DNA of 64,000 nucleotides, from contig NZ_CP108100.1 in NCBI RefSeq assembly GCF_036195045.1, positions 2,294,001 to 2,358,000 on the forward strand, written 5' to 3'. A model generated the notes under the pieces. That model worked only from the letters and a program-made list of their open reading frames with translations, made no database searches and was not told the origin of the DNA. The stretch is from Streptomyces sp. NBC_00236. GTDB lineage: Bacteria; Actinomycetota; Actinomycetes; Streptomycetales; Streptomycetaceae. Below, piece after piece: positions 486 to 6,873 of this stretch (position 1 is its first letter; the number at the start of each line of letters is the position of its first letter). A program made the position numbers and the translations under genes.

Positions 486-856
486 GCGCCGCCGCCCAGC
501 CCGCCCCGGTAGGCGAGCAGTTGGGTTTCACGGGCCTGCCGGACGCTCCACAGCTCCGGCCCGGCACCGCGCACGCGGCTGTTGGGCGAAAGTCGTCGGC
601 CGCAGGCCGTCCGCTTCATCTTGTCCGCCCTGACCCGCACCCGGCCACCAGCACCGGCCCCCGGCAGGCGGTGCGGTGGCTGCACATCATCGCTCCGCCC
701 TCCTTCAGCGCGATCGTGTCCGCCCGGTCCTGGTGCAGGTGCGGATACAACCGCACCGCCAAGGGCCGGGCCGGCGTCCTGGCCCTGGTCGAAGCCCACA
801 CCGCCCATCCCGAACACTGCCCGCTGCTCAACCTCGAAGGGAGCAAGGCCGCATGA
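482..856 (+). CDS. Hypothetical protein (124 aa), element-encoded
   Basis: Translation-coupled on both sides: its ATG overlaps the upstream stop and its own stop overlaps the start of the DUF3987 gene. The N-terminal third is Pro/Ala-rich. The C-terminal part has CRCGYNRTAKGRAGVLALVEAH followed by a His-Cys pair, a spacing that could bind a metal, but no family is recognised. The tight coupling to the primase-like gene suggests a helper role in element replication or its control; that is inference. Confidence 0.7.
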   Translation: MSAAAQPAPVGEQLGFTGLPDAPQLRPGTAHAAVGRKSSAAGRPLHLVRPDPHPATSTGPRQAVRWLHIIAPPSFSAIVSARSWCRCGYNRTAKGRAGVLALVEAHTAHPEHCPLLNLEGSKAA

Positions 857-2391
857 GCGCCGATCTGTGGGAGGGCTTCGACGCCCTGGACCCCGAGACC
901 ATCACCGGCCCCGTCTGGGACGAGCCGGTACCCCTTAACCCCCGCCGGGAACTCCCGGTGTTCCCCGTGCACGCCCTGCCCGAGTGGCTGGGCGGCATGG
1001 TGGCCGGGGTCGCCGAGGAGACACAGACTCCGGTGGACCTCGCGGGGTGCCTGGCTCTGGCCGTCCTCGCCACCGCCGCCGGCGGCCGTGCCGTGGTCAG
1101 CGTCCGGGGCCACTGGCGCGAGCCCGTGAACCTGTACACCGCCGTCGCGCTGCCGCCCGGCAACCGCAAGAGCGCGGTGTTCGGACTCATGACGGGCCCG
1201 CTCCTCGCCGTCGAGAAGACATTGGTGGAGCTGTCCGGGCCGCGCCGGGCCGAAGCCGAGACCACCGCCCGTCTGGCCCGATCGGCAGCCGACAAGGCCG
1301 CCCAGAAGGCCGCAGCCGCCGAACCCGGGCTGCGGGACCAGCTCACCGCCGAAGCCGTCCACCTCGCCCAGCAGGCCGACGAGATGGCCGTCCCCGCCAA
1401 GCCGCAGTTGGTCGCTGACGACGTCACCCCGGAAAGCCTGGCCTCCCTGGTTGCCGAGCAGGACGGGCGGATGAGCGTCATGTCCGCCGAAGGGGAGATC
1501 TTCGACATCATCGCGGGCCGCTACTCCGGCACCCCCAACATGGGCATTTTCCTCAAGGGCCACGCCGGCGACATGGCCCGCGTCAACCGGCAGGGCCGCG
1601 ACGCCCAGCACGTCGAAGCCCCCGCCATCACCATGGGCCTCGCTATCCAGCCCGAAGTCCTGGACGCCCTCGGACGCGTCAAAGGCGCCGACGGACGCGG
1701 CCTGCTCGCACGCTTCCTCTACGCCAAGCCCGTCTCACTCGTAGGCAGCCGCAACCTCACACCGGCCCTGCTCCCGGAGGAGACCGCCGCCGCCTACGCC
1801 CAGCGCCTGGGCGGCCTCACCATGGCGCTCGCGGACTGGACCGACCCCGCCGTCCTCACCCTCACTCCCGAGGCCGACGCCGTACTCCTCGCCTACCAGC
1901 GGGTGACCGAGTCCCGTATCGGGAAGGGCCGCAGCCTCCACCCGATCATCAAGTGGGCCTCCAAGCGGGACGGGGCCGTGGCCCGCATCGCCGGACTCCT
2001 CCACCTCGCCACCCATCCCGACAACGGCTGGATGGTCCCGATCGAAGCGGCCACCATGGCCGCCGCCACCGAGATCGGGGACTACTTCACCGCCCACGCT
2101 CTCGAAGTCTTCGACGCCATGGGCGCCGACCCCGCCCAGGAAGCCGCCCACCAACTCCTCACTCACCTCAAGGAACAGCGCCTGTCCGGCTTCACCAAGC
2201 GCGAACTGTTCCGGGGCCTGGCACGCGGCGACTTCCCCGCCATGACCGACCTCGACCCCGCCCTGGTCCTCCTCGAAGAACACGGCTGGGTCCGACAGCA
2301 CCCTCAGCCGTCCCGCACCGGGCGCGGCCGGCCGCCGTCGCCCCGCTTCGACACCCACCCCAGCGTCACCCCGCCGCTCACCAGCGGCTGA
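853..2391 (+). CDS. DUF3987 primase/helicase-like replication protein
   Basis: A 512-aa protein of the DUF3987 type, found in plasmids, prophages and integrative elements and resembling the helicase half of primase-helicases. An ATP-binding loop variant PPGNRKSAVF lies at about residues 101-110, and an acidic strand MSVMSAEGEIFDII at about 207-220 fits Walker B. The C-terminal 80 residues look like a winged-helix domain (LSGFTKRELFRGLARG) with a basic tail. It stands where pSAM2-type elements carry their replication initiator, just before xis and int, so it is likely the replication protein of this element. Its stop codon is part of the first TGACAGAA repeat of the downstream array. No separate primase domain is visible. 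Confidence 0.8.
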   Translation: MSADLWEGFDALDPETITGPVWDEPVPLNPRRELPVFPVHALPEWLGGMVAGVAEETQTPVDLAGCLALAVLATAAGGRAVVSVRGHWREPVNLYTAVALPPGNRKSAVFGLMTGPLLAVEKTLVELSGPRRAEAETTARLARSAADKAAQKAAAAEPGLRDQLTAEAVHLAQQADEMAVPAKPQLVADDVTPESLASLVAEQDGRMSVMSAEGEIFDIIAGRYSGTPNMGIFLKGHAGDMARVNRQGRDAQHVEAPAITMGLAIQPEVLDALGRVKGADGRGLLARFLYAKPVSLVGSRNLTPALLPEETAAAYAQRLGGLTMALADWTDPAVLTLTPEADAVLLAYQRVTESRIGKGRSLHPIIKWASKRDGAVARIAGLLHLATHPDNGWMVPIEAATMAAATEIGDYFTAHALEVFDAMGADPAQEAAHQLLTHLKEQRLSGFTKRELFRGLARGDFPAMTDLDPALVLLEEHGWVRQHPQPSRTGRGRPPSPRFDTHPSVTPPLTSG

Positions 2392-2656
2392 CAGAAACCC
2401 CTGGACCGCTGACAGAACTGACAAAAATCAGCGAAACAGCCCCTGACCTGCGCAGACGGCCACTTCTGGCCCTGTGACAGAAATCAAAAGAAGTCCGACA
2501 GAAATCAAGCCCGCGCCTCGCCGGTCCGGTGGGGTGGCGTGACAGAAAGCCTCCCCAGCTATTTCTGTCAGATTTTCCGCGATTTCTGTCACAGGGCCCC
2601 CAGCGGGCAAACCAGCAGGTCAGACGCAGTGCCAGTGATTTCTGTCAGTTCTGTCA
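2389..2656. repeat. Iteron-like array forming a large inverted repeat, candidate origin or control region
   Basis: Ten copies of TGACAGAAATC or close variants lie in 268 bp. Six face right (2389, 2410, 2419, 2475, 2496, 2540) and four face left (ending 2570, 2591, 2647, 2656). Four left copies mirror the four right copies exactly about position 2533, with the same spacings of 21, 56 and 9 bp. The arms 2410-2506 and 2560-2656 match at about 70 of 97 positions by hand alignment. No gene fits. The region is A/T-rich compared with its flanks. It lies between the replication-like gene and xis, so a replication origin with iterons, or an operator for an element repressor, is the best guess. Confidence 0.8.
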
Positions 2657-2701
2657 CGGGAAATCGGCCCGCCGCCCACCCGGACAGCCGAGGAGCCCTT
2701 G

Positions 2702-2899
2702 GTGACCACCCCTCTGCCCACCACGCACAGAGCACTCACCGTCCCCCAAGTCATGGAAGCGCTCGGACTCAGCCGTTTCACGGTCTACAACCTCATCCGC
2801 TCGCGGGAGCTCCCGAGCATCACCATCGGCCGAGCCCGCCGCATCCCCGCCGAATCTCTCCGAACCTTCATGGAAACCAAGCTGGAGGAAGCCGCCTGA
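2702..2899 (+). CDS. xis: Excisionase / helix-turn-helix protein (Xis-type)
   Basis: A 65-aa protein with a MerR-like winged helix of the excisionase type: LTVPQVMEALGLSRFTVYNL, then a wing ending IGRARRIPAESL, and an acidic tail. Such proteins bend DNA at att sites and direct the integrase toward excision. I chose GTG 2702, 6 bp after GAGGAG; a TTG three bases upstream is too close to it. The stop overlaps the integrase start as TGATG, the usual xis-int coupling of Streptomyces integrative elements. The upstream repeat array may control it. Confidence 0.85.
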   Translation: MTTPLPTTHRALTVPQVMEALGLSRFTVYNLIRSRELPSITIGRARRIPAESLRTFMETKLEEAA

Positions 2900-4044
2900 T
2901 GGCACCGAAGAAGAGGAACCCGAACGGCGCCGGCAGCATCTGGCAGCGCAAAGACGGCCGGTACGAAGCCCGCGTCTACGTCCCTCAGCCCGACGGCACA
3001 CGCAAACGCAAGACCGTCTACGGCAGCACCTGGGACGAATGCGACACCAAGCGCCAGGAATTGGTCCTGCGCGACCGGCAAGGCGTCCCCACGCCCACTC
3101 GTTCCGCCAAGCTCTCCGAATGGCTGCCCTACTGGCTGGAGGAGTTCGTCAGGGACGACCGCAAGAAGACGACGTACGCCAAGTACGAGACGCACGTACG
3201 CCGGTACCTGATCCCGCACATCGGCTCCAAACGCCTGGAGACCCTTGGGGCCGCCGACGTGCGCCGCATGCTCACAGCCGTGACGGCACAGGCGTCGGCT
3301 GCGACAGCCAAGGAGTCTCACCGCGTTCTCCGCAGCGCTCTTACGGCCGCATGCCGCGAGGAGCTGATCACCAGAAACGCGGTCAAGCTCGTTCCGGCCC
3401 CCCGGGTGCAGTCACGAGAGCTGAAACCGTGGGACCTGGAAGAGACAACGACGTTCCTGGAGGCTGCGAGGAAGGATCCGCTGTACGCGGCGTTCGTGCT
3501 CGCCGTGGCTTTGGGGCTGCGGCGAGGAGAGGTCCTCGGACTCCGCTGGTCGGACATCGACCTGGAGCGCCGCACGCTCACCGTACGGAACCAGATCCAG
3601 CGGGTGCAGAAGGAGTTGTACGCGGACTCCACGAAAAATCGCCGGACGCGCGCCATCCCCGTACCACTCATGTGCGTGGCGCCGCTGCGCTGGCAGCGTC
3701 TCCGTCAAGCCGCGCAGCGCCACGACGCGGGGCGGGCCTGGCATGACAGCGACTACGTGTTCACTACCAGGACAGGGCGAACGATCGAGCCGAGAAACAT
3801 CAGCCGGTCGTTCGAGCGCATCACGGAGGACGCCGGGCTGCGCCGCATCCGCCTCCACGACGCTCGACATGGATGCGCCACACTCCTGTTCGCCGCTGGC
3901 GTGCCGGCGCGTGTCGTGATGGAGATCCTGGGGCACTCGCAGATCGCCGTCACGATGAACATCTACACCCACGTATCCGACGACAATCGGCGAGAGGCTA
4001 TGGGGCACATGGACCGGCTGTTGCGACGACGCCGACCCGAGTGA
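2899..4044 (+). CDS. int: Site-specific tyrosine integrase
   Basis: 381 aa, full length for the family. An AP2-like arm-binding N terminus (GSIWQRKDGRYEARVYVP) is followed by a SAM-like core-binding domain (about 70-165) and the catalytic domain. Catalytic residues are visible: Arg in GLRRGE (about 208), His320 and Arg323 in HDARHG, His346 in LGHSQ and the Tyr356 nucleophile in NIYTHV. It integrates and excises the element at a tRNA gene. It ends 12 bp before a hairpin and a tRNA-Val-like sequence, so the attachment site lies directly downstream, as in pSAM2-like elements. All catalytic residues are present, so it may still be active. Confidence 0.95.
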   Translation: MAPKKRNPNGAGSIWQRKDGRYEARVYVPQPDGTRKRKTVYGSTWDECDTKRQELVLRDRQGVPTPTRSAKLSEWLPYWLEEFVRDDRKKTTYAKYETHVRRYLIPHIGSKRLETLGAADVRRMLTAVTAQASAATAKESHRVLRSALTAACREELITRNAVKLVPAPRVQSRELKPWDLEETTTFLEAARKDPLYAAFVLAVALGLRRGEVLGLRWSDIDLERRTLTVRNQIQRVQKELYADSTKNRRTRAIPVPLMCVAPLRWQRLRQAAQRHDAGRAWHDSDYVFTTRTGRTIEPRNISRSFERITEDAGLRRIRLHDARHGCATLLFAAGVPARVVMEILGHSQIAVTMNIYTHVSDDNRREAMGHMDRLLRRRRPE

Positions 4045-4056
4045 GCTTCTGCCGGC

Positions 4057-4138
4057 AACGCCCCCGCAGCGAGCCGCTGCGGGGGCGTTCCGACTGCTCA
4101 GCGCAGCCGGTCGGGAACCGCCGACGTCAGCTTCGCAA
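4057..4138. other. Decayed attachment site: copy of tRNA-Val terminator and 3' half
   Basis: A hairpin with 13-bp perfect arms (4057-4069, 4077-4089) is identical in both arms to the one after tRNA-Val at 6761-6793. The next 48 bp (4091-4138) align without gaps to 6795-6842, the tRNA 3' half up to the anticodon, with 34 matches by hand count. The T-loop is destroyed, so this copy cannot be a working tRNA. Similarity ends at the anticodon loop, a usual crossover point for tyrosine integrases. The hairpin also serves as the integrase terminator. Confidence 0.75.
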
Positions 4139-4206: not shown

Positions 4207-5424
4207 TCACGGCCGAGTGATCTGCATGCTCGGTATGTCCCCCTTGCCCGTACACGCGGTCTTGCTCTCTCGATGCAAATCTTTGATGGCAGCTCGGATG
4301 TGCATCTGCCGTGCCTCCCCGAGAGCACTCCCCATGATCTCGGCGTGATAGCGATCCACGCTTACGGCAGCGTGTTCCTGTAGCAGGCGAAGAATGTTCT
4401 TCTTGATCTCTTCGACCCAGCCGCGCGCTCGTTGCTTCTCCTCTTGTTCGAACATGGCGTCGTCGTCAAACAGCGTGCCGTCCGCTGGCGGCGGAAGGAT
4501 CTCACGGCGCCACTGCGCCTGGGCGTGACTGATGGCCTCACCGAAGAGCCAAAGTCCAGCTGTGTGACGACTGAAAAGCACCAGGTGGTAGGCCGGTTGA
4601 TGATGCTCCCGGTTGCGTACCGGGATCGTCCAAGAGTGAGCCTTCACAGCGGCCCCGACTCGTTTGGCGAAGCCGTTCGCTATGCGCTGGACTGCCTCAC
4701 GATTGTCGGCCGAGTCCAGGTACTCCTCGCGCCACCAGTCCCCTCCGCAGGCGGCGTCCATAGCCTTCAGCGTCGCTTGCTTCCCCTTCGGCTCCTTGGA
4801 GCTGACCAACAACCCACCGATGCGACGTACTGCGTTGGCATTGAAGTTCAGCAACACCTCGGTTGCGTCACGGCCGGTGGATCCAGCCGGCTCACGTGAC
4901 CCAAAAAGTTGGGTGGTCAATGCCTCGAAGCTAAGCCCCAGGCCGAAGGGGTCGATGAACGCAAGGAGCGGCGACCCTTTCGCTTGCTCCAAAACGTATC
5001 CCAAGTGCTTCTCGACTTTGCCCTTGAGCGCTTCCGTGGTCAGGCCGCGCTCGCGTGCTTCCGTGACCAACTGGTCGAGACGTTTGAAGTCGGCAGGGCG
5101 ACGCTCGATGAAGTAGCAATCGAGTTGACGGATGCTCGCCACGTCGGCCGCAGAGTCCAGAATCAAGGCCGGTGACCCGGGCGTTCCGTCCTCGTAGCGG
5201 CCAGGGCCTGCGTAGCCGTCCAGGTAGACGACGCGGCCTCCTGGCGCCCACTTACCTACCTTCGCCGCGAACGGCTTGACGTATTGCTGAAGGATTTCGT
5301 GCTTCAAGACGGCGGCCGCCTTCTTGCTCACGAAGAACTGACGTGTAGCTTCGCTGACTTCCTCGCCAGCCTCTTCGCCACTGAGTAGGAGTTCCTCGTC
5401 CTCTACGTGCTCTTGCTCGACCAA
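4207..5424 (-). CDS. tcmP: Three-Cys-motif partner protein TcmP
   Basis: About 405 aa. Family signatures are the N-terminal FFVSKKAAAVLKHEILQQYV, then YLDGYAGPGRYEDGTPGSPA and later LLAFIDPFGLG. The DGYAGPG and IDPFG motifs recall motifs I and IV of Rossmann methyltransferases; SAM binding is my inference, not established. TcmP genes are typically found next to three-Cys-motif (DUF5131) genes, as here, with the partner directly upstream. Start: TTG 5424 has AGAGGGGG about 8 bp ahead; an in-frame GTG at 5496 has a poor ribosome site. Both genes lie inside a tRNA-Val att duplication, so they are cargo of a mobile island. The biochemical role is unknown to me. Confidence 0.85.
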   Translation of the reverse strand: MVEQEHVEDEELLLSGEEAGEEVSEATRQFFVSKKAAAVLKHEILQQYVKPFAAKVGKWAPGGRVVYLDGYAGPGRYEDGTPGSPALILDSAADVASIRQLDCYFIERRPADFKRLDQLVTEARERGLTTEALKGKVEKHLGYVLEQAKGSPLLAFIDPFGLGLSFEALTTQLFGSREPAGSTGRDATEVLLNFNANAVRRIGGLLVSSKEPKGKQATLKAMDAACGGDWWREEYLDSADNREAVQRIANGFAKRVGAAVKAHSWTIPVRNREHHQPAYHLVLFSRHTAGLWLFGEAISHAQAQWRREILPPPADGTLFDDDAMFEQEEKQRARGWVEEIKKNILRLLQEHAAVSVDRYHAEIMGSALGEARQMHIRAAIKDLHRESKTACTGKGDIPSMQITRP

Positions 5425-5541
5425 GATCCCGCCCCCTCTGTCTTGGATGCAGTTGCATATGACATTTTGGGGCGGGTCGCGCGCAGGCGCATCCACCTTG
5501 CAGTGATCACTTTGTCGAGTTGCTCAGCTCATGTACGGCGC

Positions 5542-6288
5542 TCAGGCGGTAACGGGGGCAGGCAACTCGTCCCACGTACGGCCTTGGAGCAGGCGGCCGT
5601 TGGCTTTGGGGGTGCGCCCGCCCCACTGCTTGAAGAAGAACGCCACACCGCTGTCTTGGCACGTGTCTCGGATGGATGCTGCCCAGGCCTCTTCCATGGG
5701 CCGGTGGCGAGGTCCAGACTCACCTCCAGCGATGACCCAATGGATGCCCTCCAGATCCAAGTTGTGTAGAGGGCCGAGGAGGGGTTCACACGACAAGAAG
5801 CGCACTGCGGCAGGCACCAGACGTAGGTCATCGACCCTCGGCAGCTCTCGGCTCGTCTCTACCGACACACCCATCCACAAGTTGGGCGGCCAGTCCAGGC
5901 TGTCTGCAACCTGACGCAGGCGTCGGGCCCGCTTGGTGAGAACTTGATACGTGTGCTGGGGGGTGTCGGACATGACCTGGAACACGCGGCGTACGTAGTC
6001 AAGCGGTACACGAGCGTGAAACAGGTCAGACATGGAGTTGACGAATACCGTGCGCGGACTGCGCCACTGGTAGGGGACTTGTAGAGCGTCCGGGTGCAGG
6101 GCGATACCGAACCCCGGGCCCGACGTCCGTGGGTCCCCGTCGCTTTGGTATTTGTCCGAACCCATAGCCTTCAGCCGCTTGGCAAGCGCTAGGGCATAGC
6201 AGTTGTCGCACCCCGAGGAAACCCGATCACATCCGGTGGTGGGATTCCACGTGGCTTCGGTCCACTCGATGCTGCTGCGATCGCTCAT
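5542..6288 (-). CDS. Three-Cys-motif protein, DUF5131 (phage Gp37/Gp68 family)
   Basis: 248 aa, full length. The three cysteines are C20, C27 and C30 (TGCDRVSSGCDNCYA, spacing x6, x2), which would suit an iron-sulfur cluster of radical-SAM type, though the spacing differs from the classical x3, x2. Other family blocks are SMSDLFHARVP, YQVLTKRA, WMGVSVE and WVIAGGESG.RHRPM, with FFFKQWGG near the end. ATG is preceded by GGGGAGG. It is cotranscribed with tcmP downstream. The family was named from mycobacteriophage proteins. Substrate and reaction are unknown; a role in nucleic-acid modification or phage conflict is inference. Confidence 0.9.
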   Translation of the reverse strand: MSDRSSIEWTEATWNPTTGCDRVSSGCDNCYALALAKRLKAMGSDKYQSDGDPRTSGPGFGIALHPDALQVPYQWRSPRTVFVNSMSDLFHARVPLDYVRRVFQVMSDTPQHTYQVLTKRARRLRQVADSLDWPPNLWMGVSVETSRELPRVDDLRLVPAAVRFLSCEPLLGPLHNLDLEGIHWVIAGGESGPRHRPMEEAWAASIRDTCQDSGVAFFFKQWGGRTPKANGRLLQGRTWDELPAPVTA

Positions 6289-6760
6289 CGGCTACCTCCC
6301 CTTCTTGCACCGCACGGACTGTTCGCAACTGTGTGCAACGACAACCCCACATCGGGCCAGACACCCCATCCAATCACCGGGACCCCCTGACTCAGGGCTG
6401 TTCGTCACGTGAAGGACCCAGACAGGGGCGATCCAGAGCAGCTGCCGCACGGTAATCGATTGTGCGTTCGAGACTAGGGGGTCGACGCGGCTCTCGACAG
6501 TGGCTGAACGTATATGCCCTGCGCAATCGACTCAGCGCACATCCCTCGCAGGTTAATCACCACGCAACAGCAGGGACCTTGCGACGGAAGCACTCCTGGG
6601 CGCCGGTGCCGCACCGTCGGTGAGCCAGGCCAACAGCTGCAGTCCCCGGCCGGGGCACGCACCGCCCCTACGAGGCGCCCGGAACCCGGGGGAAGCGTTT
6701 CCACTCACTGGTCCCGCAATCACACGCCAGGCCTGGGGACTGCCGTCACCTACTACCGTC
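6289..6760. other. Gene-poor stretch at the island's right end
   Basis: About 470 bp between the DUF5131 start and the tRNA-Val terminator. It must hold the promoter of the DUF5131-tcmP operon. I see no convincing gene, repeat or att-like extension. It may be the remains of the end of the inserted element. Confidence 0.4.
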
Positions 6761-6793
6761 AACGCCCCCGCAGCGGCTCGCTGCGGGGGCGTT
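6761..6793 (-). terminator. tRNA-Val terminator hairpin
   Basis: Perfect 13-bp arms AACGCCCCCGCAG (6761-6773) and CTGCGGGGGCGTT (6781-6793) with a 7-nt loop, 5 bp downstream of the tRNA CCA end. The arms are identical to those at 4057-4089. Confidence 0.85.
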
Positions 6794-6798
6794 CTGGC

Positions 6799-6873
6799 TG
6801 GTGGGCGCGGACGGTTTCGAACCGCCGACATCTGCTTTGTAAGAGCAGCGCTCTACCCCTGAGCTACGCACCC
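6799..6873 (-). tRNA. tRNA-Val (anticodon TAC)
   Basis: The complement strand reads a full cloverleaf: acceptor GGGTGCG pairs with CGCGCCC, a D-arm with GCTC/GAGC, anticodon stem CTGCT/AGCAG with loop CTTACAA giving anticodon TAC, T-arm GGCGG-TTCGAAA-CCGTC, discriminator A and an encoded CCA (6799-6801). It serves as the attachment gene of the integrative element to its left, whose 3' half is repeated at 4091-4138. Confidence 0.95.

Follow-up and report, generated by a model that had tools for sequence, protein, structure and literature searches.

A DUF5131–TcmP gene pair in a Streptomyces integrated element: two predicted S-adenosylmethionine enzymes with a possible link to DNA damage

Gene pair and predicted enzymes

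The window analyzed here, a 64,000-nucleotide stretch of the Streptomyces sp. NBC_00236 genome (contig NZ_CP108100.1, positions 2,294,001 to 2,358,000), contains a pair of adjacent genes encoding a DUF5131 protein and the protein TcmP within an integrated element. S-adenosylmethionine (SAM) is the predicted cofactor of both products:

5542..6288, minus strand: DUF5131 (Gp37/Gp68-type) protein, 248 aa, a predicted radical-SAM enzyme with C20-x6-C27-x2-C30
4207..5496, minus strand: TcmP, up to 429 aa, an RlmJ-like class I methyltransferase domain followed by a helical C-terminal part

The DUF5131 gene (6288-5542) comes first, and TcmP (5496-4207) follows after a gap of 45 nt. An earlier interpretation of the letters alone (the sequence-only reading) had called the genes operonic; their adjacency on one strand was confirmed, while the operon itself is suggested by strand and spacing, and a promoter scan at the pair found none. 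The GTG start of TcmP at 5496 is doubtful because homologues begin near the in-frame TTG at 5424, which is probably the true start (405 aa).

In the family scan, the DUF5131 protein matched PF07505 (E 9.2e-102) and TcmP matched TIGR04474 (144.2 bits against a curated cut-off of 53, E 7.1e-42), whereas no Pfam match with E of 1 or below was obtained for TcmP. The three-Cys neighbor required by the TcmP family was found in the DUF5131 protein, which carries C20, C27, and C30 and is encoded on the same strand 45 nt upstream. Both proteins were also matched by the PADLOC candidate models PDC-M41 and PDC-M30 (M41B against DUF5131, 3.1e-111; M41A against TcmP, 1.9e-12). The named close matches of the pair in the homologue listing were mostly from Streptomyces.

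The three-Cys site, which the sequence-only reading had proposed to hold an iron-sulfur cluster, is present and invariant in the DUF5131 alignment (n=56), and GC-x6-C-x2-CYA was kept in all 120 DUF5131 homologues among the matches listed (of 7,999 scored). Structures were predicted for single chains of the two proteins. Radical-SAM enzymes occupied the top rows when the predicted DUF5131 fold was compared with solved structures, the closest being spore photoproduct lyase (SPL), and the protein combines the three-Cys motif with the predicted partial TIM-barrel fold of the radical SAM superfamily. The window protein itself was not matched by PF04055, and its Cys spacing differs from the canonical CX3CX2C. 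The three-Cys site is in keeping with an iron-sulfur radical-SAM enzyme, for which the cluster and SAM cleavage are predicted. The hydrogen-donor Cys of the solved SPL, which we take to be C140, falls on S85 of DUF5131 in a by-eye alignment, and Ser occupied this position in 56/56 sequences; C210, found in 53 of 56, could be another hydrogen donor. A sequence search of solved structures gave no relative of either protein, all rows being at chance level.

In TcmP, the methyltransferase domain spans approximately residues 49-336 and the helical C-terminal part residues 345-429; the latter is winged-helix-like as judged by secondary structure only and was barely covered in the structure comparison. 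The DGYAGPG and IDPFG motifs, which had been likened to those of methyltransferases, are present. Among the 56 paired TcmP proteins from genome loci, K65, D93, G97, G99, G107, S108, D182, P183, and G185 were invariant and E131 was kept in 55, and position 184 was F in 40, Y in 10, and C in 6. The nearest structural likeness was to nucleic-acid methyltransferases, with small-molecule ones close behind (13.5). The fold and these residues support a class I methyltransferase that would use SAM.

Occurrence of the pair and SOS-box-like sites

Genome loci were fetched with a TcmP alignment (65 loci), and DUF5131 was found near TcmP in 60 of them (38 convergent, 13 with TcmP first, and 9 with DUF5131 first), with more than 1 kb between the genes in only two. 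The other five loci had a broken or truncated TcmP (L190, L191, and L200), a contig end (L196), or an alternative radical-SAM frame (L201). As a query, the single TcmP sequence found no relative in the genome or viral contigs; the TcmP alignment found two in viral contigs. In a phylum sample of 246 genomes, TIGR04474 was found in 36 and PF07505 in 34. Thirty TcmP loci from this sample, including that of the window, comprised 20 with DUF5131, nine with an alternative SPL-like frame (seven CX3CX3C, one CX3CX2C, and one without a reading), and one partial TcmP with neither. The DUF5131 half of the pair thus appears, from these sequences, to be exchangeable for another SPL-like radical-SAM protein.

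TcmP was detected in 22 of 199 Streptomyces genomes (18 over the cut-off) and DUF5131 in 34, and DUF5131 lay within 1 kb of 15 of the 16 TcmP matches that covered at least 250 of 263 positions. Four Mycobacteriaceae pairs were likewise convergent. For viruses, TcmP accompanied 45 of 80 DUF5131 loci (the best 80 of 590), and single-sequence tblastn against 50,697 annotated phage records found TcmP in 10 and DUF5131 in 161. TcmP was also present in 41 plasmid records and has been listed among prophage genes (PMC12429752). The pairwise distances of the two proteins were correlated (r 0.42, n=56, 0/2000 permutations), a value that still includes shared ancestry, and the correlation was 0.37 without Micromonospora, in which the pair occupies one chromosomal place in eight syntenic loci.

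Several loci deviated from the simple pair. On one of the 41 plasmids, from the haloarchaeon Halopiger, TcmP adjoins two radical-SAM genes (L221, 3320-7110). A second, divergent TcmP (344-372 aa) lies next to the pair in five loci (L145:11316-12401, L149, L155, L174, and L188), that of L145 having a GMT-wHTH-like end just under the cut-off. A small MarR/ArsR-like helix-turn-helix (HTH) gene was present in 8 of 67 loci (e.g., L146:12087-12446), with matches below the cut-off. Streptomyces DUF5131 genes without TcmP (L279-L284) seem to carry insertions because the family match is stretched over ~1.0-1.2 kb. In L246/L245 (G171), an insertion seems to split TcmP, whose distal part is also present as a copy elsewhere in the genome. 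The 719-aa TcmP frame in L247, which continues by eye into a hydrolase-like stretch, was taken as a run-on frame.

Upstream regions were searched for CGAAC-N4-GTTCG, which we take to be the actinobacterial LexA motif. With plain open reading frame starts, a site with at least 9 of 10 positions preceded 14 of 59 DUF5131 genes (4 exact) and 22 of 798 control genes (3 exact; Fisher p 1.4e-8). The controls were other genes of the same loci, excluding those with an upstream region overlapping that of DUF5131 or shorter than 250 nt; one exact control site (L156) precedes a small gene on the same strand two genes upstream of DUF5131. No such site preceded any of 64 TcmP genes. With profile-corrected starts, sites preceded 24 of 58 DUF5131 genes (6 exact), the control starts being left uncorrected; these were distributed over 19/36 convergent, 3/9 DUF5131-first, and 2/13 TcmP-first pairs, compared with 1/64 for TcmP itself. 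Other spacings of the motif gave at most 3/58, and no more than 3 sites were obtained with any of 29 alternative palindromes composed of the same letters. Sixteen of the 24 sites were located at -30 to -48. Loci with an exact site include L147, L155, L160, L171, L180, and L199.

Sites were also found in 3 of 22 loci of the phylum sample, in 4/13 paired and 0/6 solo Streptomyces DUF5131, and in one of the four Mycobacteriaceae pairs (one of the four being shared with the class sample described below). Exact alpha- or gamma-type LexA sites occurred in four viral loci with TcmP (2 alpha and 2 gamma) and in 0/35 without it; these candidate sites may be chance matches or may differ from the consensus of the hosts. 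The p-values are too small because the sets partly overlap and related loci are not independent. The SOS-like site is a property of a subset of relatives, placed before the radical-SAM gene and not before TcmP. Separately, a perfect palindrome, CGCACATATGTGCG, was observed at -52/-53 of DUF5131 in L306, L308, L309, and L310; it matches the SOS box at 8 of 10 positions and is possibly the site of another regulator.

Proposed activity and competing explanations

It is highly probable that the two proteins are SAM enzymes and that they act together. What the pair does is more tentative: we favor, at somewhat less than even chances, a two-enzyme SAM-dependent module for damage-linked DNA base chemistry (repair or tailoring). 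The module would act on nucleic-acid bases, most likely those of DNA. DUF5131 would be a small SPL-fold radical-SAM enzyme whose C20/C27/C30 loop holds a [4Fe-4S] cluster and generates the 5'-deoxyadenosyl radical. TcmP would be an RlmJ-related class I methyltransferase whose SAM site is complete and which carries DP(F/Y)G, and its winged-helix-like C-terminal part could hold DNA. In a putative complex, TcmP would bind and present, and possibly methylate, a base on which DUF5131 would then perform a radical step, so that damaged or modified DNA is repaired or tailored. The presence of SOS-box-like sites in some relatives speaks for DNA damage rather than phage conflict. In a bolder and rather unlikely version, TcmP would be constantly present as a methyltransferase of DNA bases or a reader of lesions, and its SPL-fold partner would be a radical enzyme, induced by damage, that erases or rebuilds the same base. 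The two genes would then form a horizontally moving system of direct-reversal DNA repair (or a writer/eraser system), with LexA control confined to the radical-SAM half in lineages with an SOS-like site.

Our literature search covered open-licence PubMed Central papers. No function for DUF5131 or TcmP was found in this literature, although one may be in print elsewhere; DUF5131 and PF07505 went unmentioned, no function emerged from its coverage of radical-SAM defence, SPL-like families, or family accessions, and no description of a direct-reversal or writer/eraser pair of this kind was met. We take Rv2735c to be a TcmP, from PMC7387457 and a mapping of locus numbers that we assume. Published work groups Rv2735c with recA-recX and also assigns it to a mitomycin-C cluster (PMC3062782 and PMC5057432). 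SplB-like enzymes have been described in SOS-linked operons (PMC3765255), and UV-C raises the expression of an SPL-family gene in Curtobacterium (PMC12029717), which may or may not be of the DUF5131 family.

Several results weigh against a damage-linked DNA module. SOS control is no proof of repair, as mobile elements use it too. Thirty-eight of the 60 pairs are convergent, and therefore the genes are often not co-transcribed, and DUF5131 occurred without TcmP in 35 of the 80 viral loci. Eight of the 24 SOS-like sites represent the one syntenic Micromonospora locus. Sites in viral loci did not clearly differ with and without TcmP (3/45 and 0/35), and in a new class sample (27 of 30 fetched loci scorable, five of them repeats of earlier loci) they were weaker than in the first set, with 1/13 paired and 0/9 solo. 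The window DUF5131 itself lacks a convincing SOS box (best site 8/10 at -182), the rhizobial and Gallionella loci had no LexA sites of the alpha or gamma type, and no RecA motif was found near the four Mycobacteriaceae pairs. Foldseek E-values for DUF5131 were weak (SPL 8.2e-3, rank 3), and for TcmP an O-methyltransferase was ranked first and RlmJ sixth; the profile comparison of TcmP covered RlmJ as its only methyltransferase family. For another SPL-annotated Streptomyces radical-SAM family, a link to DNA repair was called speculative (PMC12924846).

The most probable alternative, which we nonetheless consider unlikely, is anti-phage defence, in which TcmP and the radical-SAM enzyme would either label the host's own DNA or harm the nucleic acid of phages. 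This fits the PADLOC matches of both proteins and the patchy, mobile distribution of the pair (22 of 199 Streptomyces genomes and 41 plasmid records). PDC candidates come from guilt-by-embedding and are mostly unvalidated (PMC12988326). In a table of Sinorhizobium genes affected by NolR, TcmP directly follows hna, a defence gene (PMC12445080). On the other side, phages and prophages themselves carry the pair, and in Micromonospora it stays at a single chromosomal position in eight loci.

The neighborhood of the pair was compared with control stretches ~100 kb away, using 18 pair loci from contigs longer than 150 kb and genes called by a codon-bias script instead of a standard gene finder. After removal of one Micromonospora locus, its control stretch, and three short test frames, the comparison comprised 150 of 161 test frames and 136 of 147 control frames at 17 loci each. 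Among the 150 frames within 5 kb of the pairs, 75 PADLOC families were matched, and 57 among the 136 control frames, which is no clear excess of defence genes. Among the families listed (the first 25 of 75 and of 57), Hachiman and a type IIG enzyme were near pairs, and DpdF, ZacA/ZacB, and PsyrT were in the controls. The role in phage conflict suggested by the sequence-only reading thus gained no support from this survey. The loci tested were mostly chromosomal, and the pair may still serve in defence on mobile elements.

Slightly less probable is that the pair modifies rRNA or tRNA as RlmJ and RlmN do, which might protect the ribosome; against this stand the DNA enzyme SPL as the nearest fold of DUF5131, the SOS-like sites in part of the relatives, and the winged-helix-like end of TcmP. 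A viperin-like DUF5131 that modifies nucleotides or a small molecule, with TcmP methylating the product, is very improbable, as viperin-like folds ranked clearly behind SPL (14.2) and TcmP was most like nucleic-acid methyltransferases, even with small-molecule enzymes close.

DUF5131 and TcmP are found in bacteria and phages as well as on plasmids, haloarchaeal ones included. With a likely chemistry named for the two halves, an exchange of partners seen, and SOS-like sites present in part of the relatives, the guess of phage conflict becomes a question of DNA damage and nucleoside modification. If the damage-linked reading is true, the pair would represent a DNA repair or base-tailoring route that joins radical-SAM and methyltransferase chemistry.

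The integrated element and known systems

The following features surround the pair:

676..2391, plus strand: DUF3987 helicase-like protein of the element (PF13148, E 1.4e-101; phrog_2373 DNA helicase, 4.9e-65); frame start approximate
2539..4044, plus strand: tyrosine integrase of the element (PF00589, E 5.9e-30); open frame, the true start likely further in
2702..2899, plus strand: HTH_17 protein, 65 aa, excisionase-like by position (PF12728, E 6.1e-14)
4046..4133: degenerate (80%) copy of the tRNA-Val/terminator attachment (att) region, immediately after the stop codon of the integrase; the pair is located between this copy and the tRNA
6799..6873, minus strand: tRNA-Val (tac), the integration target (ARAGORN; Rfam RF00005, 6802-6873)
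6801..6843: attachment core, right copy, 43 bp, within the tRNA-Val gene; matched at 100% over 43 bp by genome 2284916-2284958, outside the window

The pair lies between the tyrosine integrase (stop at 4044) and tRNA-Val (6799-6873), inside a repeat-bounded element, in agreement with the mobility proposed earlier. A direct repeat of 98 nt (78%) joins 4041-4138 behind the integrase and the tRNA end at 6745-6842. A search for att copies in the whole genome (one 8.33-Mb contig) found two copies to the left of the window, one exact over 43 bp (genome 2284916-2284958) and the other at 93% (genome 2282894-2282953). Four copies form a row (tRNA, exact, 93%, and 80%), which would fit an accumulation of elements at a single tRNA. 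The exact repeats bound ~15.9 kb (genome 2284916-2300843), which encode a small methyltransferase, a GntR/UTRA regulator, DUF2637, DUF6197, and DUF3987 proteins, the HTH_17 protein, and the integrase. An FtsK-like protein was also matched there, below the cut-off (FtsK_SpoIIIE, E 2.5e-4), and no clear Rep could be named.

The element resembles actinomycete integrative and conjugative elements (AICEs) such as pSAM2 in its integrase, excisionase-like HTH protein, GntR regulator, DUF3987 protein, tRNA att repeats, and weak FtsK-like match, and the tyrosine integrase and tRNA att repeats by which AICEs are recognized were both found. It is AICE-like, and the difference lies in its cargo: the pair occupies the tRNA end, flanked by the integrase and the att copy on the tRNA side.

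PADLOC lists the pair as the unvalidated defence candidate PDC-M41/PDC-M30, and thus it is not undescribed, as the sequence-only reading had supposed, even if the literature searched assigns it no function. Both window proteins match these paired models; the TcmP match is weak, defence genes were in no clear excess near the 17 pairs, and the literature searched reports no activity. PDC-M30 was present in 32 Pseudomonas aeruginosa strains, of which 68.8% were resistant (PMC10855318).

DUF5131 shares with SPL the radical-SAM barrel of its nearest solved fold. It differs in having CX6CX2C in place of CX3CX2C, in the lack of a PF20903 match with E of 1 or below for the window protein, in having a partner gene, and in that the three cluster Cys are its only invariant Cys (n=56). 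TcmP shares with RlmJ, the 23S rRNA A2030 N6-methyltransferase, the fold and the K-H, AG-x-G, GSP, and DP blocks. The RlmJ motif is DPPY, where TcmP has DP(F/Y)G, and TcmP has an extra C-terminal part and a radical-SAM neighbor; TcmP had no PF04378 (RlmJ) match with E of 1 or below, the likeness appearing in profile-profile and fold comparisons only. The window locus belongs to the TcmP/three-Cys-motif pairs (TIGR04474 with DUF5131 or another SPL-like radical-SAM protein), with which it shares the genes, their adjacency, and their mobility. That name records the association only; the present analysis adds SOS-like sites, predicted folds, and a kinship of the proteins to RlmJ and SPL.
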